Virus record (IMG/VR): IMGVR_UViG_3300042452_000485
Coordinates: 1 to 29,056 of that record
DNA length: 29,056 bases
From: a virus
Reading direction: 5' to 3' (one strand)
In this document: positions 1,113-27,576 of the stretch, one piece after another
How the letters are laid out: every line of letters begins with the position of its first letter
Numbering within the stretch: position 1 is the stretch's first letter
Made by a program: the position numbers and the translations under genes
The notes under the pieces: generated by a model
What the model was told of the DNA's origin: nothing
What the model saw: the letters and a program-made list of their open reading frames with translations, nothing else
The model's database searches: none

Positions 1113-1330
1113 CACCGGCTGCTCTCAATCGCGAACAGGCTGCGGAGTATGTCGGGCTTTCGCCCAACAGCTTCGATGAGGCCGTTGCGTGCGGGAAGAT
1201 GCCGAAGCCGAGAACCTATGAGCCCGAAATCCGCCGCCTCGTCTGGCTCAGATCGGAGCTTGAAGACGGTCTTAACCGGCTGGGAACGCAAAGCGCCAAG
1301 TCTAGGCCCTACCAGGGCATCCAGATTTGA
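1109..1330 (+). CDS. AlpA/MerR-like helix-turn-helix protein, possible excisionase
   Basis: The 73-residue product opens with LNREQAAEYVGLSPNSFDEA, the winged-helix pattern of AlpA-type regulators and recombination directionality factors, followed by a basic wing (GKMPKPRTY) and RRLVWLRSELE, where these proteins usually end their DNA-binding domain. The start is GTG at 1109, overlapping the previous stop. Its stop overlaps the integrase TTG start, so the two are made together. That position fits a role in controlling excision or integration, but a purely transcriptional role is equally possible. Confidence 0.6.
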   Translation: MTPAALNREQAAEYVGLSPNSFDEAVACGKMPKPRTYEPEIRRLVWLRSELEDGLNRLGTQSAKSRPYQGIQI

Positions 1331-2406
1331 GCGCGCCAGCCATGATACTAGACCTGCCCTACACCTGCGAATATCCCAGCAGGCACGGCAAACTTCAGCG
1401 CTATGTGCGCCTGCCGGGCAAGCGCAAAATCCGCCTGCGGTCAGATCCCGTGCGCGATCGGCTCACCTTCATTGCGGAGTATAACAGCGCCGTAAACGGC
1501 CAGACGCCGCCCGCCAAGGGCTTTTCCCGCTCGCGCGAAGGGACGTTCGCCCACCTTGCCGAAGCCTATATGCGCTCGCCCGCGTTCACGAAGCTTGACA
1601 GGAGGTTAACGCAGCGCCCGCGCGAGCTGATATTGCTCAAGCTGATCGGGCAGATCGGAACGAAGCCCGCCGTGATCGATACGGCGACAATCCGCGAAGG
1701 CGTCAACCGCAGGAACTACGGCGCCGCCAAGGACTTCCTCGCGACCCTGCGAGCCGTTTACAAGTTCGGCATCGAGAATGAACTAGTGGACAAGAACCCG
1801 ACGCTGGGCGTCCCCCTGAAGCGCCCAGAGACAGACGGCTTCCATACGTGGACGGTCGAGGAATGCGCCGCCTATGAGGAACGCTGGCCCGTAGGCACGC
1901 AGGCACGCACCGCCTACGCAATCGGCCTGTACGCCGCCCAGAGGTCATCTGACGCGGTCCAGTTGGGCAAGCAGCATATCCAGGCTGACCGGCTCAGGTT
2001 CACGCAGCAGAAGAACCGCGCCAGCAAGCCGGTCTGGATCGACATCCCCATAGTCCCGCCGCTGGCCGAAGCGCTCGCCGGCTGGAAGGGAAAGAGCCTG
2101 ACCTTCCTAGAGACGGAGTATGGCCGCGCATTCACTCCAGACGGCTTCAGGAACCGTTTCCGCAAATGGTGCGACGATGCCAGCCTGCCCGCGCATTGCT
2201 CGTTCCACGGGCTCAGGAAGGCCGCCGCAACGCGAATGGTGGAGGCCGGGAAGACCCCGCACCAGATCATGGCCGTGCTGGGTCACAAGACGCACCAGCA
2301 GGCGGCTACTTATACCGCCAAGGCCGATCGCGCGATTCTGGCAGATGACGCGCTGGACGGTCTATACTCGGCGGACAGCAAACCGAAGGTCGCAGGGCAT
2401 GGTTAA
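1327..2406 (+). CDS. int: Tyrosine site-specific integrase
   Basis: A full-length 359-residue phage integrase that catalyses recombination between attP and attB. The N-terminal arm-binding segment (about 13-56) contains RHGKLQRYVRLPGKRKIRL; a core-binding helical domain follows (about 72-160). In the catalytic domain the active-site set is visible: R206 (AAQRSSDA), K229 (QKN), H294 and R297 (HGLRKAAATRM), H320 (LGHKTHQQ) and nucleophile Y329 (ATYTAKADR). The TTG start at 1327 overlaps the upstream stop as TTGA, matching the operon style; ATG 1342 is the alternative and would remove five residues. The 3' end overlaps the GIY-YIG gene by 8 bases. Confidence 0.93.
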   Translation: MSAPAMILDLPYTCEYPSRHGKLQRYVRLPGKRKIRLRSDPVRDRLTFIAEYNSAVNGQTPPAKGFSRSREGTFAHLAEAYMRSPAFTKLDRRLTQRPRELILLKLIGQIGTKPAVIDTATIREGVNRRNYGAAKDFLATLRAVYKFGIENELVDKNPTLGVPLKRPETDGFHTWTVEECAAYEERWPVGTQARTAYAIGLYAAQRSSDAVQLGKQHIQADRLRFTQQKNRASKPVWIDIPIVPPLAEALAGWKGKSLTFLETEYGRAFTPDGFRNRFRKWCDDASLPAHCSFHGLRKAAATRMVEAGKTPHQIMAVLGHKTHQQAATYTAKADRAILADDALDGLYSADSKPKVAGHG

Positions 2407-3687: not shown

Positions 3688-3922
3688 CGTGTACGCGCAC
3701 CGCTGAACTCGGAACCCACCTAGAGCCCGCCTGAACGAAGCACGTATGGTCCCGCCACTCGTAAGCGAAGCCCGATCGATGCCACCGCGTATGGCAGTCC
3801 TGAGCCATCCCGGTGAGCCAGACCGCAGCCCCAACAGCCCCGGCGATCAGGACGCTGAGGAGCGCCAAGACCGCCGGGGATAGAGGTATCGCGATCCGCC
3901 TAGACGTTGAAGCGGCGCGCAA
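3671..3922 (-). CDS. Small single-pass membrane protein at the end of the late operon
   Basis: The 83-residue product has a basic N-terminus, one hydrophobic segment (about 15-38, AVLALLSVLIAGAVGAAVWL) and a C-terminal part with two cysteines (AQDCHTRW, HTCFVQAG) that would face the periplasm. The start is uncertain: the TTG at 3922 overlaps the upstream gene by 23 bases and lacks a clear ribosome site, and an internal start is possible. The position behind the spanins suggests an accessory lysis role, but no family is recognised. Confidence 0.5.
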   Translation of the reverse strand: MRAASTSRRIAIPLSPAVLALLSVLIAGAVGAAVWLTGMAQDCHTRWHRSGFAYEWRDHTCFVQAGSRWVPSSAVRVHVREPG

Positions 3923-4121
3923 AGTACGGCCAGGCCACGACGCCGACAGCGATCAGGATCAGCCAGTTCTTCAGGCCAGCGAGGAACGGAACCGGCTCAA
4001 AGTTCGGCAGAATGATGGACGTGACGGCGAGCGCGACGAGGATGCACCAGAGCAGAGCCCTGAGCTTGCGCCACATCAGCTTGGCGTCGATGTCCGGAAC
4101 AGAGATTTGAGTAGTCGCCAC
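3900..4121 (-). CDS. Two-pass small membrane protein, candidate holin
   Basis: This 73-residue product has two hydrophobic stretches (about 23-39 and 52-65, the latter NWLILIAVGVVAWPYFARR) and a short basic C-terminus. The start is GTG 4121, with GGAG nine bases upstream. Size, topology and a place next to the spanin genes fit a class II holin, the protein that opens the inner membrane at lysis. However, many phage lysis regions carry non-holin membrane proteins, and the neighbouring lysozyme has membrane segments of its own. Confidence 0.5.
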   Translation of the reverse strand: MATTQISVPDIDAKLMWRKLRALLWCILVALAVTSIILPNFEPVPFLAGLKNWLILIAVGVVAWPYFARRFNV

Positions 4122-4158: not shown

Positions 4159-4437
4159 TTAAACCTTGCAAATTGAAGCGTTGAAGCTGGCGGGACGCTT
4201 CTCCGGGCATTTGCACCAGAGGTCGGCGTTGTGGTCCCCGATCTGTTCAGCCGTCTCCAGTGTGAGAATGTCGGCTTGCGAAATCAGGATCGCCTTCCCG
4301 CTCGCGCAGGTCGCGTCCACGTAGATGGTCCGGTCAATCCCGGTAATTTTCGGCAGGGAGGCGGGCTCCGAGTCCGTCTGGCACGCGCTCAGCAAAGTCA
4401 TGGCTGCGCACAGCGTCACTTTGGCGGATGTATTCAT
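4159..4437 (-). CDS. Rz1-like outer-membrane spanin lipoprotein
   Basis: Starting at ATG 4437 with GGAG upstream, the 92-residue product has a lipoprotein signal with lipobox LLSAC; C19 is the lipidation site. The mature part contains ILTLETAEQIGDHNADLWC, which matches the pattern of Rz1-like phage lipoproteins with a D-LT-TA-QI-HN signature. Four further cysteines (C44, C75, C77, C90) suggest disulfides. The gene begins inside the Rz gene in another frame, the hallmark of overlapping Rz/Rz1 pairs. Together they would fuse inner and outer membranes at the last step of lysis. Confidence 0.75.
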   Translation of the reverse strand: MNTSAKVTLCAAMTLLSACQTDSEPASLPKITGIDRTIYVDATCASGKAILISQADILTLETAEQIGDHNADLWCKCPEKRPASFNASICKV

Positions 4438-4636
4438 GGCTGTTCTCCGTGATGGTGTTGACGATCGCGGCTTGCGCTTCAGCAGCGCGGGCTCGGTTGG
4501 CCTCACGCTCCTGACGCCTGACGCCGCTCTCGACGTTGTGTTTCCACGTCTTGTAGCCGACGAAGGCCAGCACAATGGCGATGAGGATCTGTGCGAATTG
4601 GTTGGTTGAAAGCCACTTCCAGAATGCGAGCAGCAT
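4334..4636 (-). CDS. Rz-like inner-membrane spanin
   Basis: The 100-residue product has an N-terminal transmembrane anchor (about 12-30, QFAQILIAIVLAFVGYKTW) followed by a charged helical segment likely to form a coiled coil (RRQEREANRARAAEAQAA). This is the standard i-spanin layout. ATG 4636 is preceded by GAGG at good spacing. It begins just after the lysozyme stop and shares 104 bases with the Rz1-like gene in another frame. The coil would span the periplasm and bind the Rz1-like lipoprotein. Confidence 0.75.
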   Translation of the reverse strand: MLLAFWKWLSTNQFAQILIAIVLAFVGYKTWKHNVESGVRRQEREANRARAAEAQAAIVNTITENSHEYIRQSDAVRSHDFAERVPDGLGARLPAENYRD

Positions 4637-4643
4637 GTGCGCC

Positions 4644-5906
4644 TCAATACATGGCCTGCGAAGCGGACTTCTCGCCTCGCTTCTTGATCTTCAGTCCAAG
4701 CTTGTCGATCATGAAGGCGAACACCCACAGGACGCCCGTGATTGCCATTGCGATCAGGGTGACCAGAATGGCCAGGTTGGTCGGAGACTTCATCATGTCG
4801 AGGATGCCCACGACGATGACCCCGCCGACGCCAGTGAGAGCCGTTCCGTTCGCCATGATGACGCGCGCGAACGTGCCGAACAGCATGAGCGCCGCGCCTA
4901 CGAAACGTTCGGTTTCCTCCATTGGCTTCAGGCCAGCAGTCGGATCGATCCGGTAGGGAACGTGTTCCGGCATCTTCGTATTGTCGCTGGGCGGCTTCGT
5001 GCCGACAGGCGCGGGAGGCTGCACCTTGGCCGGCACAGAAGCAGGAGCCGGTCGCGCTGGTGTCGGCTGGGGAGCCGGGACAGGTGGCGCGACCGGCGCC
5101 GCTTCCGAGGAACCACTCGCGGAAGTCTTGATGGCAGGCGCAGCCGGTGCGGGGCTTGGGGGGCGCACCGGCTGGCCCGCCTTGCCTGCCGCCTCCGCTT
5201 CGGAGGTCGGGGGCTCAGCTTTGACTGTGAGGTCTAGGACAGGTTGCTCAGGTGGGAGCGGGTAGCGTTGGGCGACGCTGAGGACGTCCTTGAAGGGCGT
5301 CTTGAACAGGACTTTGTCAGTGCCGACATCGTTCGGCGGGCGTTCGCGAACCAGGGCGACGGCTTCATCAGAGCAGGCAAGCGTGCCGTCATAGTTCATC
5401 CATTGGCAAGCCTCGAAATACCTCCGGCGCAGTAGTCCGCGAAGCGCCTGCTTGTGCTGGCCTGCGGTCGAATAAAGCCACATGCCGAACGCATCCGCGG
5501 CATCATCGAAACGGCTGGCGTTGACGTGGCGCAGCAACGTTGAGCCAGACAGCGCCTTGATGCCCACGTTGAACGAAAAACACACAAGCGCCGAAAACTG
5601 GTTGCTTGTGATAGGGACCGTGACCAGTTCGCGAACGGCAATCTCGTACTCGATGACCTGATCTGCCAGCAGCTCCAGCGCGTGCGCTTCATCGCGCAGC
5701 GTGTAGCCGGGAAGAAGCTCAGCGCCACCGAACCAACGCGTGCAGCCGTAGCCGATGGTAAGCTTGCCGCCCGGACAGATGTACGTTTCGAGCGCCGCGC
5801 CATTTGTCGAAAGCTTAACGGATTCCGGTCCCTTTTCGAACAGGGTAAGGCAATAGAGCCCGTGCCTGTTCAGCCTGTGATGCGCGTTCAACTTGCAGAC
5901 CCCCAC
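4644..5906 (-). CDS. GH24 phage lysozyme with C-terminal membrane domain
   Basis: The 420-residue endolysin-like product hydrolyses peptidoglycan glycan strands if active. Residues about 16-170 form a GH24 (T4/P21-type) lysozyme: LETYICPGGKLTIGYG with C44 and T50 at the canonical spacing, FSFNVGIKAL, and STLLRHVNASRF; RGLLRRRYFEA closes the domain. The usual catalytic Glu position is Asn35; Glu24 in LFEKG may serve if there is an insertion. A proline/alanine linker (about 245-305) leads to two or more hydrophobic segments (about 336-369 and 378-401) and a lysine-rich end. GH24 endolysins normally lack such a C-terminal membrane part. GTG 5906 overlaps the Hsp70 gene; TTG 5891 is an alternative start. 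Confidence 0.85.
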   Translation of the reverse strand: MGVCKLNAHHRLNRHGLYCLTLFEKGPESVKLSTNGAALETYICPGGKLTIGYGCTRWFGGAELLPGYTLRDEAHALELLADQVIEYEIAVRELVTVPITSNQFSALVCFSFNVGIKALSGSTLLRHVNASRFDDAADAFGMWLYSTAGQHKQALRGLLRRRYFEACQWMNYDGTLACSDEAVALVRERPPNDVGTDKVLFKTPFKDVLSVAQRYPLPPEQPVLDLTVKAEPPTSEAEAAGKAGQPVRPPSPAPAAPAIKTSASGSSEAAPVAPPVPAPQPTPARPAPASVPAKVQPPAPVGTKPPSDNTKMPEHVPYRIDPTAGLKPMEETERFVGAALMLFGTFARVIMANGTALTGVGGVIVVGILDMMKSPTNLAILVTLIAMAITGVLWVFAFMIDKLGLKIKKRGEKSASQAMY

Positions 5907-7408
5907 TCAACGTCACCGCACGTCCCGAACACTTCCCCACGCGCGTTCAGGCCGATGGTGAACTGCACACGCTCAGAGCGCGGATCGCCCGGTTCAATCG
6001 GAACATCGATCGCGTGCAGCAGGTCGCACGCTGAGGCGCGGTCATGGTCACCCGTCACGATGCGGACAGGGAGAACAGCCTGCCCCGGCTCACGGTTGGT
6101 CAGGGCAAAGATCAGCGGCGACGGGGTCGGGTATGTCGTGCCGCGGGGAATGACGACAGACGCGACGCCCTCGACCTTGTCATAGACCTCGACGGCAACG
6201 CTGTAGGACAGCACGTCTTGGATCGTCAGGTCGGACTTGCGCCCCTCGATCACCGCCGCACGGATCGCAGCGCCGAGAACAACGGCCACTTCCGGGTCAA
6301 TGTCCGTTTTTGCTTCCTGCCCGAAGATATCGCGCGCAAGGGCCTGCACCGCTGGCATACGCGTACCGCCGCCAACGAGGACGACGTCATTCAGATCCCG
6401 CGCCGAGAAATTCGGGTCTTTGCGCTTGGCTTCCGCAATCGCGACTTCGCACGCAGCCCGCATCCGCTTGAGAAGGTCTTGCGCCAGATGCTCCAACAAC
6501 GGACGGTCGATGATCTCGTCCATGTGCAGGACGACACCGCCAGGCGTGCGGTCAAAGTCCTTGATGCGGAACTCGGTCTTCTGCTTGCGGGAAAGCCGGA
6601 TCTTGGCTTGCTCGGCTTCCTGCAGCACAAGCGACATGGCGCTGTCGTCAACAGCCAAGTCTGTCTCGTGCTGCTTGGACCATTCGTTGACAATGTACCG
6701 GCCTAGAATGGCGTCCACATCGCTGCCGCCCGTGATGGAACTGCCGCCCGTGCCGAGAACCGTCACGAGCCCGTTGCCGGTCTGGATGATGCTGACGTCA
6801 GTCGTCCCGCCGCCCACGTCCAGCACCGCAATCCGGCGCACTTTCTTGAAGTCGAAGCCGTAAGCGAGTGCGGCTGCGGTTGGCTCGTCCATCAGCTCGA
6901 TATAGGCAAGGCCCGCCATCTGGCCTGCTTCCTCGACCGCCTTGCGCTGCGATGGCGTGAAAGTCGCCGGGACGCAGATCACCGCGCCGTCTGGACGCTC
7001 GCCTTTGAACTTTTCGGTTGCGGCATCCAATAACTTGCCGATGACCATGCTGCACAACTCAACCGGGCTATACGTATGGCCGTCCGGTCCTTGGTAATGC
7101 AGCATCCCATCGCCAGAGCCGACCGTCTGGTATCCGGTATCTTCGTCCGCGTGCCACATCTCGCCAAGGCGGCGCTTGAACAGGCGGAAGCAGTAGTCCC
7201 GATACCGCTTGCCGACCTCGATGCCGTCGATGCCTACGAAGATTTGGCTTTCATCGGGGCCGACTGCATCAGCCGGCGCAATGGTGACGACGGATGGCAT
7301 GAGCGCCTTGCCGTCTACGGGGATGACTTCGGGGCCGCGACCGTTCCAGCGCGAAATGCTGCTGTTCGTGGTCCCCATATCGATGCCGACTAAGCGAGAG
7401 AGTTTCAT
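5888..7408 (-). CDS. Hsp70-family (DnaK-like) ATPase lacking the lid domain
   Basis: A 506-residue cytoplasmic Hsp70 homologue. The nucleotide-binding domain is complete: phosphate-1 loop GIDMGTTNSSI (8-18), a Lys in FKRRLG (78), connect region ELMDEPTAAALAYG (171-184, E175), phosphate-2 loop VLDVGGGTTDVSI (195-207) and adenosine motif VVLVGGGTRMP (342-352). A short beta substrate-binding domain follows (about 395-495, ending VQFTIGLNARGEV); the helical lid found in roughly 640-residue DnaK is absent. The ATG start overlaps the stop of the membrane-protein gene (ATGA), so the two are co-translated. No J-domain HPD motif or GrpE-like gene is seen in the window. Phage Hsp70s are uncommon; its substrate is unknown. 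Confidence 0.9.
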   Translation of the reverse strand: MKLSRLVGIDMGTTNSSISRWNGRGPEVIPVDGKALMPSVVTIAPADAVGPDESQIFVGIDGIEVGKRYRDYCFRLFKRRLGEMWHADEDTGYQTVGSGDGMLHYQGPDGHTYSPVELCSMVIGKLLDAATEKFKGERPDGAVICVPATFTPSQRKAVEEAGQMAGLAYIELMDEPTAAALAYGFDFKKVRRIAVLDVGGGTTDVSIIQTGNGLVTVLGTGGSSITGGSDVDAILGRYIVNEWSKQHETDLAVDDSAMSLVLQEAEQAKIRLSRKQKTEFRIKDFDRTPGGVVLHMDEIIDRPLLEHLAQDLLKRMRAACEVAIAEAKRKDPNFSARDLNDVVLVGGGTRMPAVQALARDIFGQEAKTDIDPEVAVVLGAAIRAAVIEGRKSDLTIQDVLSYSVAVEVYDKVEGVASVVIPRGTTYPTPSPLIFALTNREPGQAVLPVRIVTGDHDRASACDLLHAIDVPIEPGDPRSERVQFTIGLNARGEVFGTCGDVEWGSAS

Positions 7409-8604
7409 TCTGCGGCCACCTTCGCTTGCATGGTGTCAAGGGTTGAGACAGGCCCGATGACAAGCAGGCGCTCGGTCTTCTCAGCCCGGCGATTGTGTTG
7501 TGCCGCCAGCCCGCCCTGACGCGCCGCGCGCTGCTGGTCTGTCAGTTCTGGTGCTGGGGATGGCTCAGGCTCTGGCGCAGCCGCTGGTGCGGGTTCTGGC
7601 TCCGGGGCTGCGATGGCAGCCGGGGGAGGCTCAATCGCGACAGGCGCAGGCGCTGGGGCCATAGCCGCACGCATCGCCGCGACTTCCTGCTGATGCCGAA
7701 GCTCTGCAAGCTCGTCCGTGCGCTCTCGATCGCGCTTGGCGTCGTTCGCGCTGATATCCGTGATGAGCGCCCAGAGGCTGAGAGAACGGGCGCCCTCAAG
7801 GACGCAAAGCATGATGATGAGCCAGAGCCATGCCCAGAAGGCAGCGTTGGCTGCGTCGGCTTGCTCGATCTGCAACAGGCGCTTGTCGCTGGTCGCTTGC
7901 AGGACGGGGCTGGCCTGCCCTGCCATGAGCCCGTCTTCCCGCGCCTTGAGGTTGGCAAGCTCCGCCTGGATAGCCTCGCCGCGCGCACGCATAGCGGATT
8001 CAGTCTTGTCCTGCCGGATGCCGTCCACACTGCCGAAATAGAGCCCTTGGGCCAGCAACAGGCTTTGAGCCTTGGAGATGCCCTCTGGCGACATGCTCGC
8101 CATGATCTGCTGCTCGGTCTTCAGTTCCGCGATCTGGACGCGGACGCGCTCAAGCTCTGCGCCGGTCCCGCTGATTGCTGCCTGCTGCGCCGTGCCGAGC
8201 GTTCCGGCTTCCTCGCCTGCAAGCGCCGCCTTGGCCTGAAGCGAGGCAGAGCTTTCCGCGAAGCGATCGGGCCAGACAACCTTCGCGCCGTTCTCGGCAT
8301 TGTGGACGCCCACGGCTGCGAGGCCCACGAAGATGAACGCGCCGGCCACCTTGCGCCAGAGCGTCGATGCGGTGAGCATCCGGATAAACGCAACGGTTGC
8401 CAGCAGCTCCGCGCCGAGAACGGCGAAGATCAGGCCCACGGTCGGAAGCGCAGACAGCCATGTCCACTTGGCAGTTGCAACGATGCCGGTAACGCTCAAG
8501 CTTGCGAGGCCCAGCGTGATGATGACCACCGCGAACAGCGCAAACTTGCGGGTCGCGTCGGCTTCGTTTTTGAACTCTAGGAACTTGTCGAGAAACTTGC
8601 CCAT
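7405..8604 (-). CDS. Four-pass membrane protein with coiled coil and peptidoglycan-binding-like segment
   Basis: The 399-residue product has three N-terminal membrane helices (about 21-45, 49-74, 84-103), a large soluble region (about 105-250), a fourth helix (about 254-275) and a proline/alanine-rich tail. With the N-terminus inside, the soluble region is periplasmic and the tail cytoplasmic. The periplasmic part begins as a coil and contains AQSLLLAQGLYFGSVDGIR followed by TESAMRARGEAI (172-215), matching the PG_binding_1 repeat pattern (LL--GxYxGxVDG--T--A). The tail ends near ERLLVIGPV, a hydrophobic peptide of the kind Hsp70s bind. It is not a recognised family; linkage between cell wall and the coupled Hsp70 is inference. 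Confidence 0.75.
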   Translation of the reverse strand: MGKFLDKFLEFKNEADATRKFALFAVVIITLGLASLSVTGIVATAKWTWLSALPTVGLIFAVLGAELLATVAFIRMLTASTLWRKVAGAFIFVGLAAVGVHNAENGAKVVWPDRFAESSASLQAKAALAGEEAGTLGTAQQAAISGTGAELERVRVQIAELKTEQQIMASMSPEGISKAQSLLLAQGLYFGSVDGIRQDKTESAMRARGEAIQAELANLKAREDGLMAGQASPVLQATSDKRLLQIEQADAANAAFWAWLWLIIMLCVLEGARSLSLWALITDISANDAKRDRERTDELAELRHQQEVAAMRAAMAPAPAPVAIEPPPAAIAAPEPEPAPAAAPEPEPSPAPELTDQQRAARQGGLAAQHNRRAEKTERLLVIGPVSTLDTMQAKVAAE

Positions 8605-8622: not shown

Positions 8623-9054
8623 CTACATGCGCGCGGTTGTTTCCCAGAACACAAACAGCGCCCCGAAGATCGACAGCACAGCGCCGAGGATCAGGAACTG
8701 GAATTGCTGCCGGGTCTTCTTTGCTTCGTTCGCCGCGGCTTCCCGATCGCGTGCAAGCATCAGTTCGACTTGCGCAATCAGCGATACAGACTGCTGATCG
8801 TTCGCCGTGGTGAAGTGCTCACGAATGCCGTTCGTTGCTTCTCTCAATCCACTCTCCCACTCTCGCCGTAGTTCCTTGATATCCTCAGCGGAAACGGATC
8901 GCTCCAGCTCCTTGAGGAAGGTATCGAACGCCGCTTCAAAGCGTGTCCGCAGGACGGCAACGTCCCGCTCCACCGTGTTGATGCGATCGTTGCTCTTGAA
9001 CGCGTCGCGCTGACGCTCGATCTCGACCGTCTCGCGTAGAAGTAATTCCGTCAT
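8623..9054 (-). CDS. Coiled-coil protein with C-terminal membrane anchor
   Basis: The 143-residue product is almost entirely charged helix (RETVEIERQRDAFKSNDRI through ARDREAAANEAKKTRQQ) and ends in one hydrophobic segment (about 119-137, FLILGAVLSIFGALFVFW) with a five-residue tail. This is a tail-anchored topology, placing the coil in the cytoplasm. It resembles small phage membrane proteins of the late region but no named family is recognised. It lies 18 bases upstream of the four-pass membrane protein, so the two probably act together or at the same membrane. Confidence 0.65.
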   Translation of the reverse strand: MTELLLRETVEIERQRDAFKSNDRINTVERDVAVLRTRFEAAFDTFLKELERSVSAEDIKELRREWESGLREATNGIREHFTTANDQQSVSLIAQVELMLARDREAAANEAKKTRQQFQFLILGAVLSIFGALFVFWETTARM

Positions 9055-14749: not shown

Positions 14750-15217
14750 ATGACGAAATATACTCAAGACCGTCCCTTTGAACAGCAAGCCTGCCTTGCT
14801 TTTGTTGGGCTCTCGGTCGTGACGGCCACCCTCGGCTTTTGGGCTAAGGGCTGGTTGCCTGGAATGCTCCTGACGGTCGCAATGGCCGTTATCGTGTTCC
14901 TCCTGTCGCGCGCTGTAGAGCGAGTGCAGGAAGCTTGGGAGACGAAGAACTGGTTTACCGCAGTCGTCGCCGGCACGCTCGCCCTCGGCTTCTGCTTCAT
15001 TGAGGCTGGCCTCAACCACATCGGGTTGGAACACCTCAATGCAGAGTACCGGATCGCACCGGAATGGGCTCTCTGGCCCGCCTGCTTCTTCATCTCCCTC
15101 GTGAATGTCTTTGCATCGTTCGGCTTTGCCCGCACCCTGCGAGACAATCGGATACAGGCTCCGATCACCAATCCGGCCCGCCAGCTTGCGGAACTCCGCT
15201 GGAAAAAGTCCGCCTAG
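14750..15217 (+). CDS. Four-pass membrane protein, probable moron
   Basis: The 155-residue product has four hydrophobic segments (about 14-31, 35-53, 67-88, 104-127) separated by short charged loops, including SRAVERVQEAWETKNW and a basic C-terminal tail. No family is recognised. It points against the late operon, has its own leader and ribosome site, and is followed at once by a rho-independent terminator. This is the arrangement of moron genes, often expressed from the prophage to alter the host envelope or block superinfection. That role is inference from layout; the sequence itself shows only an integral membrane protein. Confidence 0.8.
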   Translation: MTKYTQDRPFEQQACLAFVGLSVVTATLGFWAKGWLPGMLLTVAMAVIVFLLSRAVERVQEAWETKNWFTAVVAGTLALGFCFIEAGLNHIGLEHLNAEYRIAPEWALWPACFFISLVNVFASFGFARTLRDNRIQAPITNPARQLAELRWKKSA

Positions 15218-15222
15218 AACGA

Positions 15223-15253
15223 AGCCCCTGCCTTAGTTGGCGGGGGCTTTTTT
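15223..15253 (+). terminator. Rho-independent terminator of the inverted membrane-protein gene
   Basis: AGCCCCTGCC (15223-15232) and GGCGGGGGCT (15239-15248) form a 10-base-pair stem with one G-T pair and loop TTAGTT, followed by a T run to 15253. It begins six bases after the stop of the + strand gene. The stop codon of the convergent ejection protein lies within the loop, so it overlaps the end of that gene. Confidence 0.85.
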
Positions 15254-26893: not shown

Positions 26894-27184
26894 CTAGTCC
26901 TTGGCCTTCAAGGCCGCTTCACGTTCACGACGCTGAGCGGCCCAACGGGAAACGCCCGGCCAGTCTTCCGGGTCCAGTTCTTCGGGCTGGTCAAGGTCGT
27001 GTGGGGTCGATCTCGAATGCAGCTTCCAGAGTGTGCTGTTGGCTGGCTGATGCCAATCGTACAGACTCACATCTACGGCCAACCGCGTCTCGGCCAACTT
27101 GTCAAAAGCGGCTAACGCTTCGCCTTCATCGTCCGTAAAGACAACGCCTAGCAACCCGACGCGCACTTCATATCGATGGCTCAT
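26894..27184 (-). CDS. Small hypothetical protein
   Basis: The 96-residue product has a beta-rich N-terminus (YEVRVGLLGVVFTDDEGEAL) and a charged tryptophan-containing C-terminus (PEDWPGVSRWAAQRREREAA). The start overlaps the co-chaperonin stop by four bases. It is not recognised. Its location between co-chaperonin and scaffold suggests a head-assembly context, but nothing in the sequence proves this. Confidence 0.6.
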   Translation of the reverse strand: MSHRYEVRVGLLGVVFTDDEGEALAAFDKLAETRLAVDVSLYDWHQPANSTLWKLHSRSTPHDLDQPEELDPEDWPGVSRWAAQRREREAALKAKD

Positions 27185-27576
27185 GCCGCCACCTTGGCGC
27201 TTTCCGCATCCGCCGTGCGAATGCCGACGATCTCCTTGTCCTTCATCACGCGATAGACACGGCCATCAGCGCCCACGAAGGACTTGCCGGCATAGCGTGC
27301 AAACATCACGCGCTCGCCAACCTTCGGGATTGCGTCAGGGTTCGGGAAGTCGTCCTCGTTGAATGCCAGCGGTGAGATGGCGACTAACAGCCCCTCATCC
27401 CCGCCCTCGTCTTCACGCTGGGCGCTGGTTTCGGGAACGAAGATACCCGAGGCCCGTTGCCGTTGGACGACACGCGGGAGCACGAGGCAGTTGAACTCAA
27501 GGGGTTTCATCCCCGGATTGGTTTCCTCAACCTTCGGAAGTTTCTCGAAGGTCAGGGTAGAGTGATGCAAGGACAT
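27181..27576 (-). CDS. GroES-like co-chaperonin (T4 gp31 type)
   Basis: The 131-residue product has a Cpn10-like core: MKPLEFNCLVLPRVVQRQ, then ASGIFVPE corresponding to the GroES mobile loop with its hydrophobic tripeptide, then GLLVAISP, then PKVGERVMFARYAGKS, and finally VYRVMKDKEIVGIR. These match the GroES order of first strand, loop, and paired G-x-V-F strands. It would cap host GroEL, as T4 gp31 does for the capsid protein. The N-terminus is extended by 22 residues; ATG 27576 has GAAAGGGA upstream and is preferred over ATG 27510. It overlaps the previous gene by 50 bases. Its place just upstream of scaffold and capsid fits a head-folding role. Confidence 0.8.
   Translation of the reverse strand: MSLHHSTLTFEKLPKVEETNPGMKPLEFNCLVLPRVVQRQRASGIFVPETSAQREDEGGDEGLLVAISPLAFNEDDFPNPDAIPKVGERVMFARYAGKSFVGADGRVYRVMKDKEIVGIRTADAESAKVAA

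Follow-up and report, generated by a model that had tools for sequence, protein, structure and literature searches.

A lidless phage Hsp70 and the membrane-protein tail that travels with it: a candidate chaperone-membrane switch in a lysis locus

Introduction

What does an Hsp70 without a lid do among the lysis genes of a phage, and on which protein does it act? The question is raised by IMG/VR virus contig IMGVR_UViG_3300042452_000485, whose 29,056 bases were analysed and are referred to here as the window. A preliminary description of this DNA had reported an Hsp70-family ATPase with an intact nucleotide-binding site, a beta substrate-binding domain and no lid. It regarded the protein as a stable part of a podovirus lysis block, suggested that it acts on a late protein, perhaps a membrane factor or one that times lysis, and proposed an HMM search, structure prediction and a neighborhood search as checks. 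Hsp70s are generally held to need J-proteins, plus a lid for tight binding.

Results and Discussion

Identity and active site of the Hsp70

The Hsp70 gene (5888..7408, minus strand) encodes 506 amino acids, of which residues 7-491 were spanned by a PF00012 match (E 2.1e-90). The closest PDB relatives were DnaK and mortalin, and the AF2 model (pLDDT 83.7, pTM 0.81) matched ATP-state DnaK structures (TM ~0.85-0.88) over the NBD and SBD-beta, so that the HMM and structural checks both bore out the family assignment. The protein consists of the NBD and most of SBD-beta, whose strands were visible in the model, with the canonical last strand missing.

The catalytic residues D8, K70, P143, E171 and T199 (DnaK numbering) were invariant in the phage Hsp70s, in keeping with the intact nucleotide-binding site described earlier, and these proteins are probably ATPase-competent, to judge by their sequences. 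Mean pN/pS was 0.26 among members of class A (one of the Hsp70 classes A-E treated below), indicating that the gene is not decaying. The DnaK linker positions L390 and L392 were not conserved, so coupling between the NBD and SBD could be weakened.

Several further readings of the Hsp70 were tried. An actin-like filament (MreB) reading of the ORF was rejected because its Pfam score fell far below that of HSP70; an interdomain clamp, K414-D326, was not retained, since D326 falls in a column that shifts between alignments; and a suspected frameshift in the Hsp70 of L092 was rejected, the ORF being intact. A charge swap, E167/R481, was present in class A Hsp70s with the exception of L024 and is suggestive only.

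Absence of the lid and of the J-domain interface

The Hsp70 C-terminus aligned to approximately DnaK residue 497 and no residue lay beyond DnaK 502; the lid is therefore absent, as had been claimed. The number of residues past DnaK 502 was zero in classes A-D and 4-7 in class E and L105, compared with 76-155 in lidded controls. The lidded comparators (n=11) were DnaK, HscA and further Hsp70s from viral contigs, those of large phages included; among the controls, L106 and L107 encode lidded DnaKs close to a DnaJ-like gene. Every one of the 11 lidded rows retained R167 and N170, the residues that contact J-domains, and all 19 lidless rows had lost both. In DnaK, R167 touches the Asp of the HPD motif in J-domains (PMC8215388). 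When 30 Hsp70s were placed in a tree, every lidless row fell on one side of a single branch (support 100/99).

Canonical DnaK features were thus missing here: the lid, R167/N170 and the DnaJ/GrpE partners, the partners having been sought in the phage contigs only. Neither DnaJ nor GrpE was found in these contigs, which may be incomplete, although several reach 44-58 kb. From this sequence evidence the phage Hsp70 probably works independently of J-proteins. A match in Pseudomonas phage Y6 was rejected as a relative; it is a full-length, host-like DnaK with a GrpE-like gene upstream.

The Hsp70 follows a membrane protein across viral contigs

Directly upstream of the Hsp70 lies the gene for a membrane protein of 399 amino acids (MP; 7405..8604, minus strand), a candidate partner. 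The Hsp70 ATG start codon shares a 4-nt ATGA overlap with the MP gene, as previously described. Viral contigs scanned with MP alone as the query yielded 26 loci. The Hsp70 was found directly 3' of MP in 25 of the 25 contigs that extended far enough, while one contig (L039) ended inside MP. Adding the window, L056, L064, L067, L068, L092, L103 and L104 brought the set to 33 contigs, several of them near-duplicates. The Hsp70 also stood behind every MP tail recovered by tail searches, and among the viral contigs searched none carried MP or its tail without the Hsp70. Scans of genome contigs with MP and with the Hsp70 returned no bacterial or prophage relative, and the annotated phage collection contained none of MP either.

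The view of the Hsp70 as a stable phage gene next to a four-pass membrane protein was upheld by the neighborhood search together with the pN/pS value. Relatives without the gene, inactivating substitutions and an unconserved neighborhood, which the preliminary description had named as grounds for abandoning that view, were looked for and none occurred.

Architecture of the membrane protein

MP comprised a body of four predicted transmembrane (TM) segments with a long coiled-coil stretch (predicted periplasmic), followed by a linker rich in Pro and Glu and by a conserved C-terminal tail (predicted cytoplasmic); this topology was predicted from hydropathy and charge. Its predicted model was poor (pLDDT 60.5), and a structure search with this model gave no match. 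MP matched no holin family, and with four predicted TM segments it is 399 amino acids long and carries a large coiled-coil segment and a tail. No toxin-antitoxin family match was found in MP or its neighbors, MP contained no DnaJ domain, and MP tails lacked an LPPVK motif. A stretch at 7990..8091 (minus strand), SPEGISKAQSLLLAQGLYFGSVDGIRQDKTESAM, is peptidoglycan-binding-1-like on the strength of a weak PF01471 match in the homologue L056 only (E 0.028); the window MP had no PF01471 match.

The tail occupies the last 46 residues (7408..7545, minus strand) and co-varies with Hsp70 class. The tail classes carried the following sequences: ERLLVIGP in class A, NRVLILAD in class B, ERLIVIPS in class C, AYIPVPSLVARD and similar in class D, and the acidic DDSIPIDEP in class E. 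ERLLVIGP (7450..7473, minus strand in the window), the hydrophobic core of the tail and a candidate Hsp70-binding peptide, was invariant in class A tails. Four of the five classes carried a hydrophobic patch of 4-5 residues near basic residues (e.g., ERLLVIG and NRVLILA), and in the window MP no other 5-mer of the cytoplasmic part was as hydrophobic as this patch. Both examples resemble NRLLLTG, a DnaK model peptide (PMC7083937), the resemblance being that of a short motif. Tail charge in classes A-D ranged from +2 to +9 and SBD charge from -6 to -10; in class E the tail charge was -4 and the SBD charge -1. The pN/pS of the tail was 0.20, against 0.43 for the preceding linker. The last MP residues, KVAAE (7408-7425, minus strand), overlap the Hsp70 ribosome-binding site AAGGTGG and are for that reason probably conserved at the DNA level.

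Many MP relatives (among them L064, L025 and L027) shared another hydrophobic motif, P-[LI]-[VT]-L-V-[DE]-P, in the Pro-rich linker ahead of the tail; the window MP lacked it.

The tail is inherited with the Hsp70

The MP tail classes matched the Hsp70 classes, A-E. Across 23 loci, distance matrices for the tail and the Hsp70 correlated at r 0.97, compared with r 0.28 for the MP core and r 0.78 for the lysozyme catalytic domain. In two pairs of contigs (L103/L104 and L025/L064) Hsp70s that were 95-99% identical, with the same tail, were found on unrelated MP bodies. The DNA of L103 and L104 was ~90% identical up to the MP start, encoded unrelated bodies, and returned to ~90% identity at 46 codons short of the MP stop. 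L025 and L064 were near-identical before MP, unrelated through the bodies, and near-identical again from 58 codons before the stop. In both pairs the regained near-identity ran on through the Hsp70 and lysozyme. The third pair showed the reverse arrangement: L027 and L037 were ~94% identical until 51 codons before the MP stop, after which the tail, Hsp70 and lysozyme catalytic domain differed. DNA breakpoints therefore lay 46-58 codons before the MP stop in three of the three pairs compared, and when the MP of L064 was aligned with the MP profile (hhalign) only its last 69 residues aligned.

Each of two MP body types occurred with both class B and class E Hsp70s. Together with the three breakpoints, this indicates that the tail follows the Hsp70 and not the MP body; as read from these sequences, the part of MP that stays with the Hsp70 is its final ~46-58 residues. 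Some of this co-inheritance is owed to linkage, the tail being encoded right beside the Hsp70 gene. Breakpoints that spare the last ~50 codons each time are hard to account for by simple linkage, though recombination might be focused in the repetitive DNA of the Pro-rich linker.

The lysis setting

Downstream of the Hsp70, a lysozyme gene (4644..5891, minus strand; PF00959, E 6.5e-30) encodes a protein with a Pro/Ala-rich linker and C-terminal TM segments. A TTG at 5891 gives a 4-nt overlap with the Hsp70 stop, as in most relatives, and a GTG at 5906 would give a 19-nt overlap; the TTG is probably the true start, and either codon agrees with the downstream overlap noted earlier. Next come an Rz-like inner-membrane spanin candidate (4334..4636, minus strand), recognized from sequence features, namely a single N-terminal TM segment and a charged segment, and an Rz1-like lipoprotein candidate with an LLSAC lipobox (4159..4437, minus strand; conserved at 46-56% in relatives), which overlaps Rz in another frame. 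Downstream of the spanin-like genes, a 73-aa protein with two TM segments (3900-4121, minus strand; 94% identical in L004) is a holin candidate.

The PF00959 lysozyme followed by the overlapping Rz/Rz1-like pair confirms the predicted lysis setting of the Hsp70. The assignment to a podovirus fared less well and is plausible, head closure Hc3 and DNA-ejection PHROG matches having been found in the window. On the other side of MP, a 143-aa coiled-coil protein with one C-terminal TM segment (8623..9054, minus strand) has a similar protein at the same position in related operons.

Among relatives, the catalytic and TM halves of the lysozyme have been swapped independently. An apparent lack of the lysozyme catalytic Glu was considered and rejected; the FE motif is conserved and is followed by an insertion. 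In L002 an antisense HNH-like endonuclease ORF (L002:2948-3608) was inserted between the Hsp70 and lysozyme genes, and L016 and L040 had gaps of ~800 bp at this position.

A proposed mechanism and its alternatives

Sequence comparisons suggest, as the probable reading, a two-protein system of dedicated partners. One is an Hsp70 that lacks a lid and is probably ATPase-competent and probably J-independent; the other is an inner-membrane protein whose C-terminal tail would serve as its built-in client or tether. The tail patch (ERLLVIG, NRVLILA, RLIVIPS and AYIPVPS types) would sit in the SBD-beta groove as a substrate or pseudo-substrate. Because the J-domain contacts are lost, the tail itself is proposed to trigger ATP hydrolysis in place of a J-protein. 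Binding without a lid would be quick and reversible, which would make the pair an ATP-dependent switch at the inner membrane. By holding or releasing MP, the Hsp70 might regulate the assembly or timing of late envelope disruption, a role suggested by the neighbors of the pair, a tail-anchored coiled-coil protein on one side and, on the other, a TM-anchored lysozyme followed by spanin-like genes. It is gene position that makes regulation of lysis or envelope disruption probable. The earlier proposal that the Hsp70 acts on a late membrane factor thus gains strength and a candidate, MP, through its tail; the part concerning lysis timing stays conjectural.

More tentatively, an Hsp70 freed of its lid and of J-protein dependence may be an ATP-driven switch for interchangeable four-pass membrane effectors, docking on each by way of a C-terminal tail that can be passed between them and timing the breach of the envelope. 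On this view the tail and Hsp70 would form a portable module, represented by two unrelated membrane bodies and no fewer than five tail/Hsp70 specificity classes, and would be a new class of phage machine; this fuller picture is possible and somewhat short of probable.

The co-inheritance might instead reflect physical linkage alone, with the Hsp70 a general phage chaperone that folds late virion or lysis proteins broadly and MP no specific partner. The overlapping genes are certainly linked, and some of these phages also carry a GroES-like gene. This explanation is unlikely, however, given that MP bodies were replaced in place while their last 46-58 codons stayed with the Hsp70, and that the equally adjacent lysozyme domain was exchanged more freely (in L021 and L022 the catalytic domain differs by 54%, the Hsp70 by 4%). 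A general chaperone would also be expected to need a J-protein, GrpE and the J-domain contacts; the contacts are lost, and neither partner was found in the phage contigs. Still less likely is chaperone addiction of a toxin-antidote kind, in which MP would be membrane-toxic and its tail would be the means by which the Hsp70 holds it inactive or soluble, in the manner of SecB-like chaperones and ChAD tails in TAC. A swappable C-terminal tail tied to a specific chaperone does recall ChAD (PMC6377645), but the pair is encoded among late lysis genes and not in a maintenance locus, and the idea partly overlaps with the two-protein system, in which a lytic membrane protein would be held in check.

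The conserved tail could also be a tag that host factors recognize, as for a client or for degradation, or could contact the lysozyme or the 143-aa protein, its link to the Hsp70 being indirect. The overlap of KVAAE with the Hsp70 ribosome-binding site, and hence conservation partly at the DNA level, fits this very improbable account; against it, the hydrophobic core that is conserved is encoded ahead of the ribosome-binding site, in a tail under constraint by pN/pS, and lysozyme types track the tail less closely than the Hsp70 does. Least probable is counter-defence or host takeover, by which the lidless Hsp70 would disturb host DnaK/DnaJ-dependent processes. One phage J-protein is known to act on host DnaK (PMC3486835), and counter-defence has been proposed as a function of phage chaperones (PMC12619734). 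Titration of DnaJ is nevertheless not expected from proteins that have lost the J-domain-binding residues in every member, and the late-operon position and coupling to MP would be left unexplained.

Comparison with known chaperone systems

The dedicated Hsp70-MP pair has partial counterparts. In RAC (Ssz1-Zuo1), Ssz1 is likewise a non-canonical Hsp70 without the SBD-alpha lid, and the Zuo1 LP-motif fills Ssz1 SBD-beta as a built-in pseudo-substrate, as proposed here for the tail (PMC7083937). Unlike the phage pair, RAC is eukaryotic and ribosome-bound, has a J-protein partner, and includes an Ssz1 without ATP hydrolysis; the phage pair, by its sequences, would have a membrane-protein partner, no J-protein that could be found, and intact catalytic residues. 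HscA is a specialised Hsp70 with one client, IscU, recognized through the short conserved peptide LPPVK, and does not bind NRLLLTG (PMC9596805). It retains the lid and R167/N170, has HscB as partner, and serves a soluble Fe-S scaffold. In SecB-TA/ChAD a C-terminal extension imposes dependence on one cognate, co-encoded chaperone (PMC6377645); there the chaperone is SecB-like and the client an antitoxin, in contrast to an Hsp70 and a membrane protein.

DnaK-type Hsp70s are also encoded by large phages (Lak phages, 484-735 kb phages and moraphages). Those of Lak-A2 and four 484-735 kb phages differ in being full-length, with the lid and J-domain contacts, and pairing with a membrane-protein tail is not reported in the available portions of the accounts of large-phage Hsp70s. 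A viral HSP70 survey of 2026 included a single tailed-phage sequence, a bacterial-like DnaK (PMC12978162), and for this reason the lidless clade seems undescribed in the literature searched. The Hsp70 and membrane-protein-tail combination was not found there either. The parts are of known kinds (an Hsp70, a dedicated client motif and phage lysis genes); their combination appears new, and tail co-inheritance points to a dedicated, previously undescribed chaperone-membrane switch. Here, a natural, conserved Hsp70 clade has lost the lid and J-domain contacts, kept its catalytic residues, and is apparently devoted to one membrane-bound peptide. Its matched tail-Hsp70 sets offer material from nature for studying how the Hsp70 groove evolves specificity, and the locus suggests ATP-dependent chaperone control over a phage lysis or envelope step.

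Other features of the window

A GroES-like co-chaperonin (27181-27576, minus strand; PF00166, E 1.1e-8) was encoded near the head genes, and this gene was present in 7 of 23 related contigs. An integrase (1327-2406, plus strand) lay on the same contig. Within the late operon, a 155-aa ORF with about four hydrophobic segments (14750-15217, plus strand; conserved at 36-39% in L003 and L004) ran on the opposite strand, beside a tRNA-Trp (15139-15235, minus strand).
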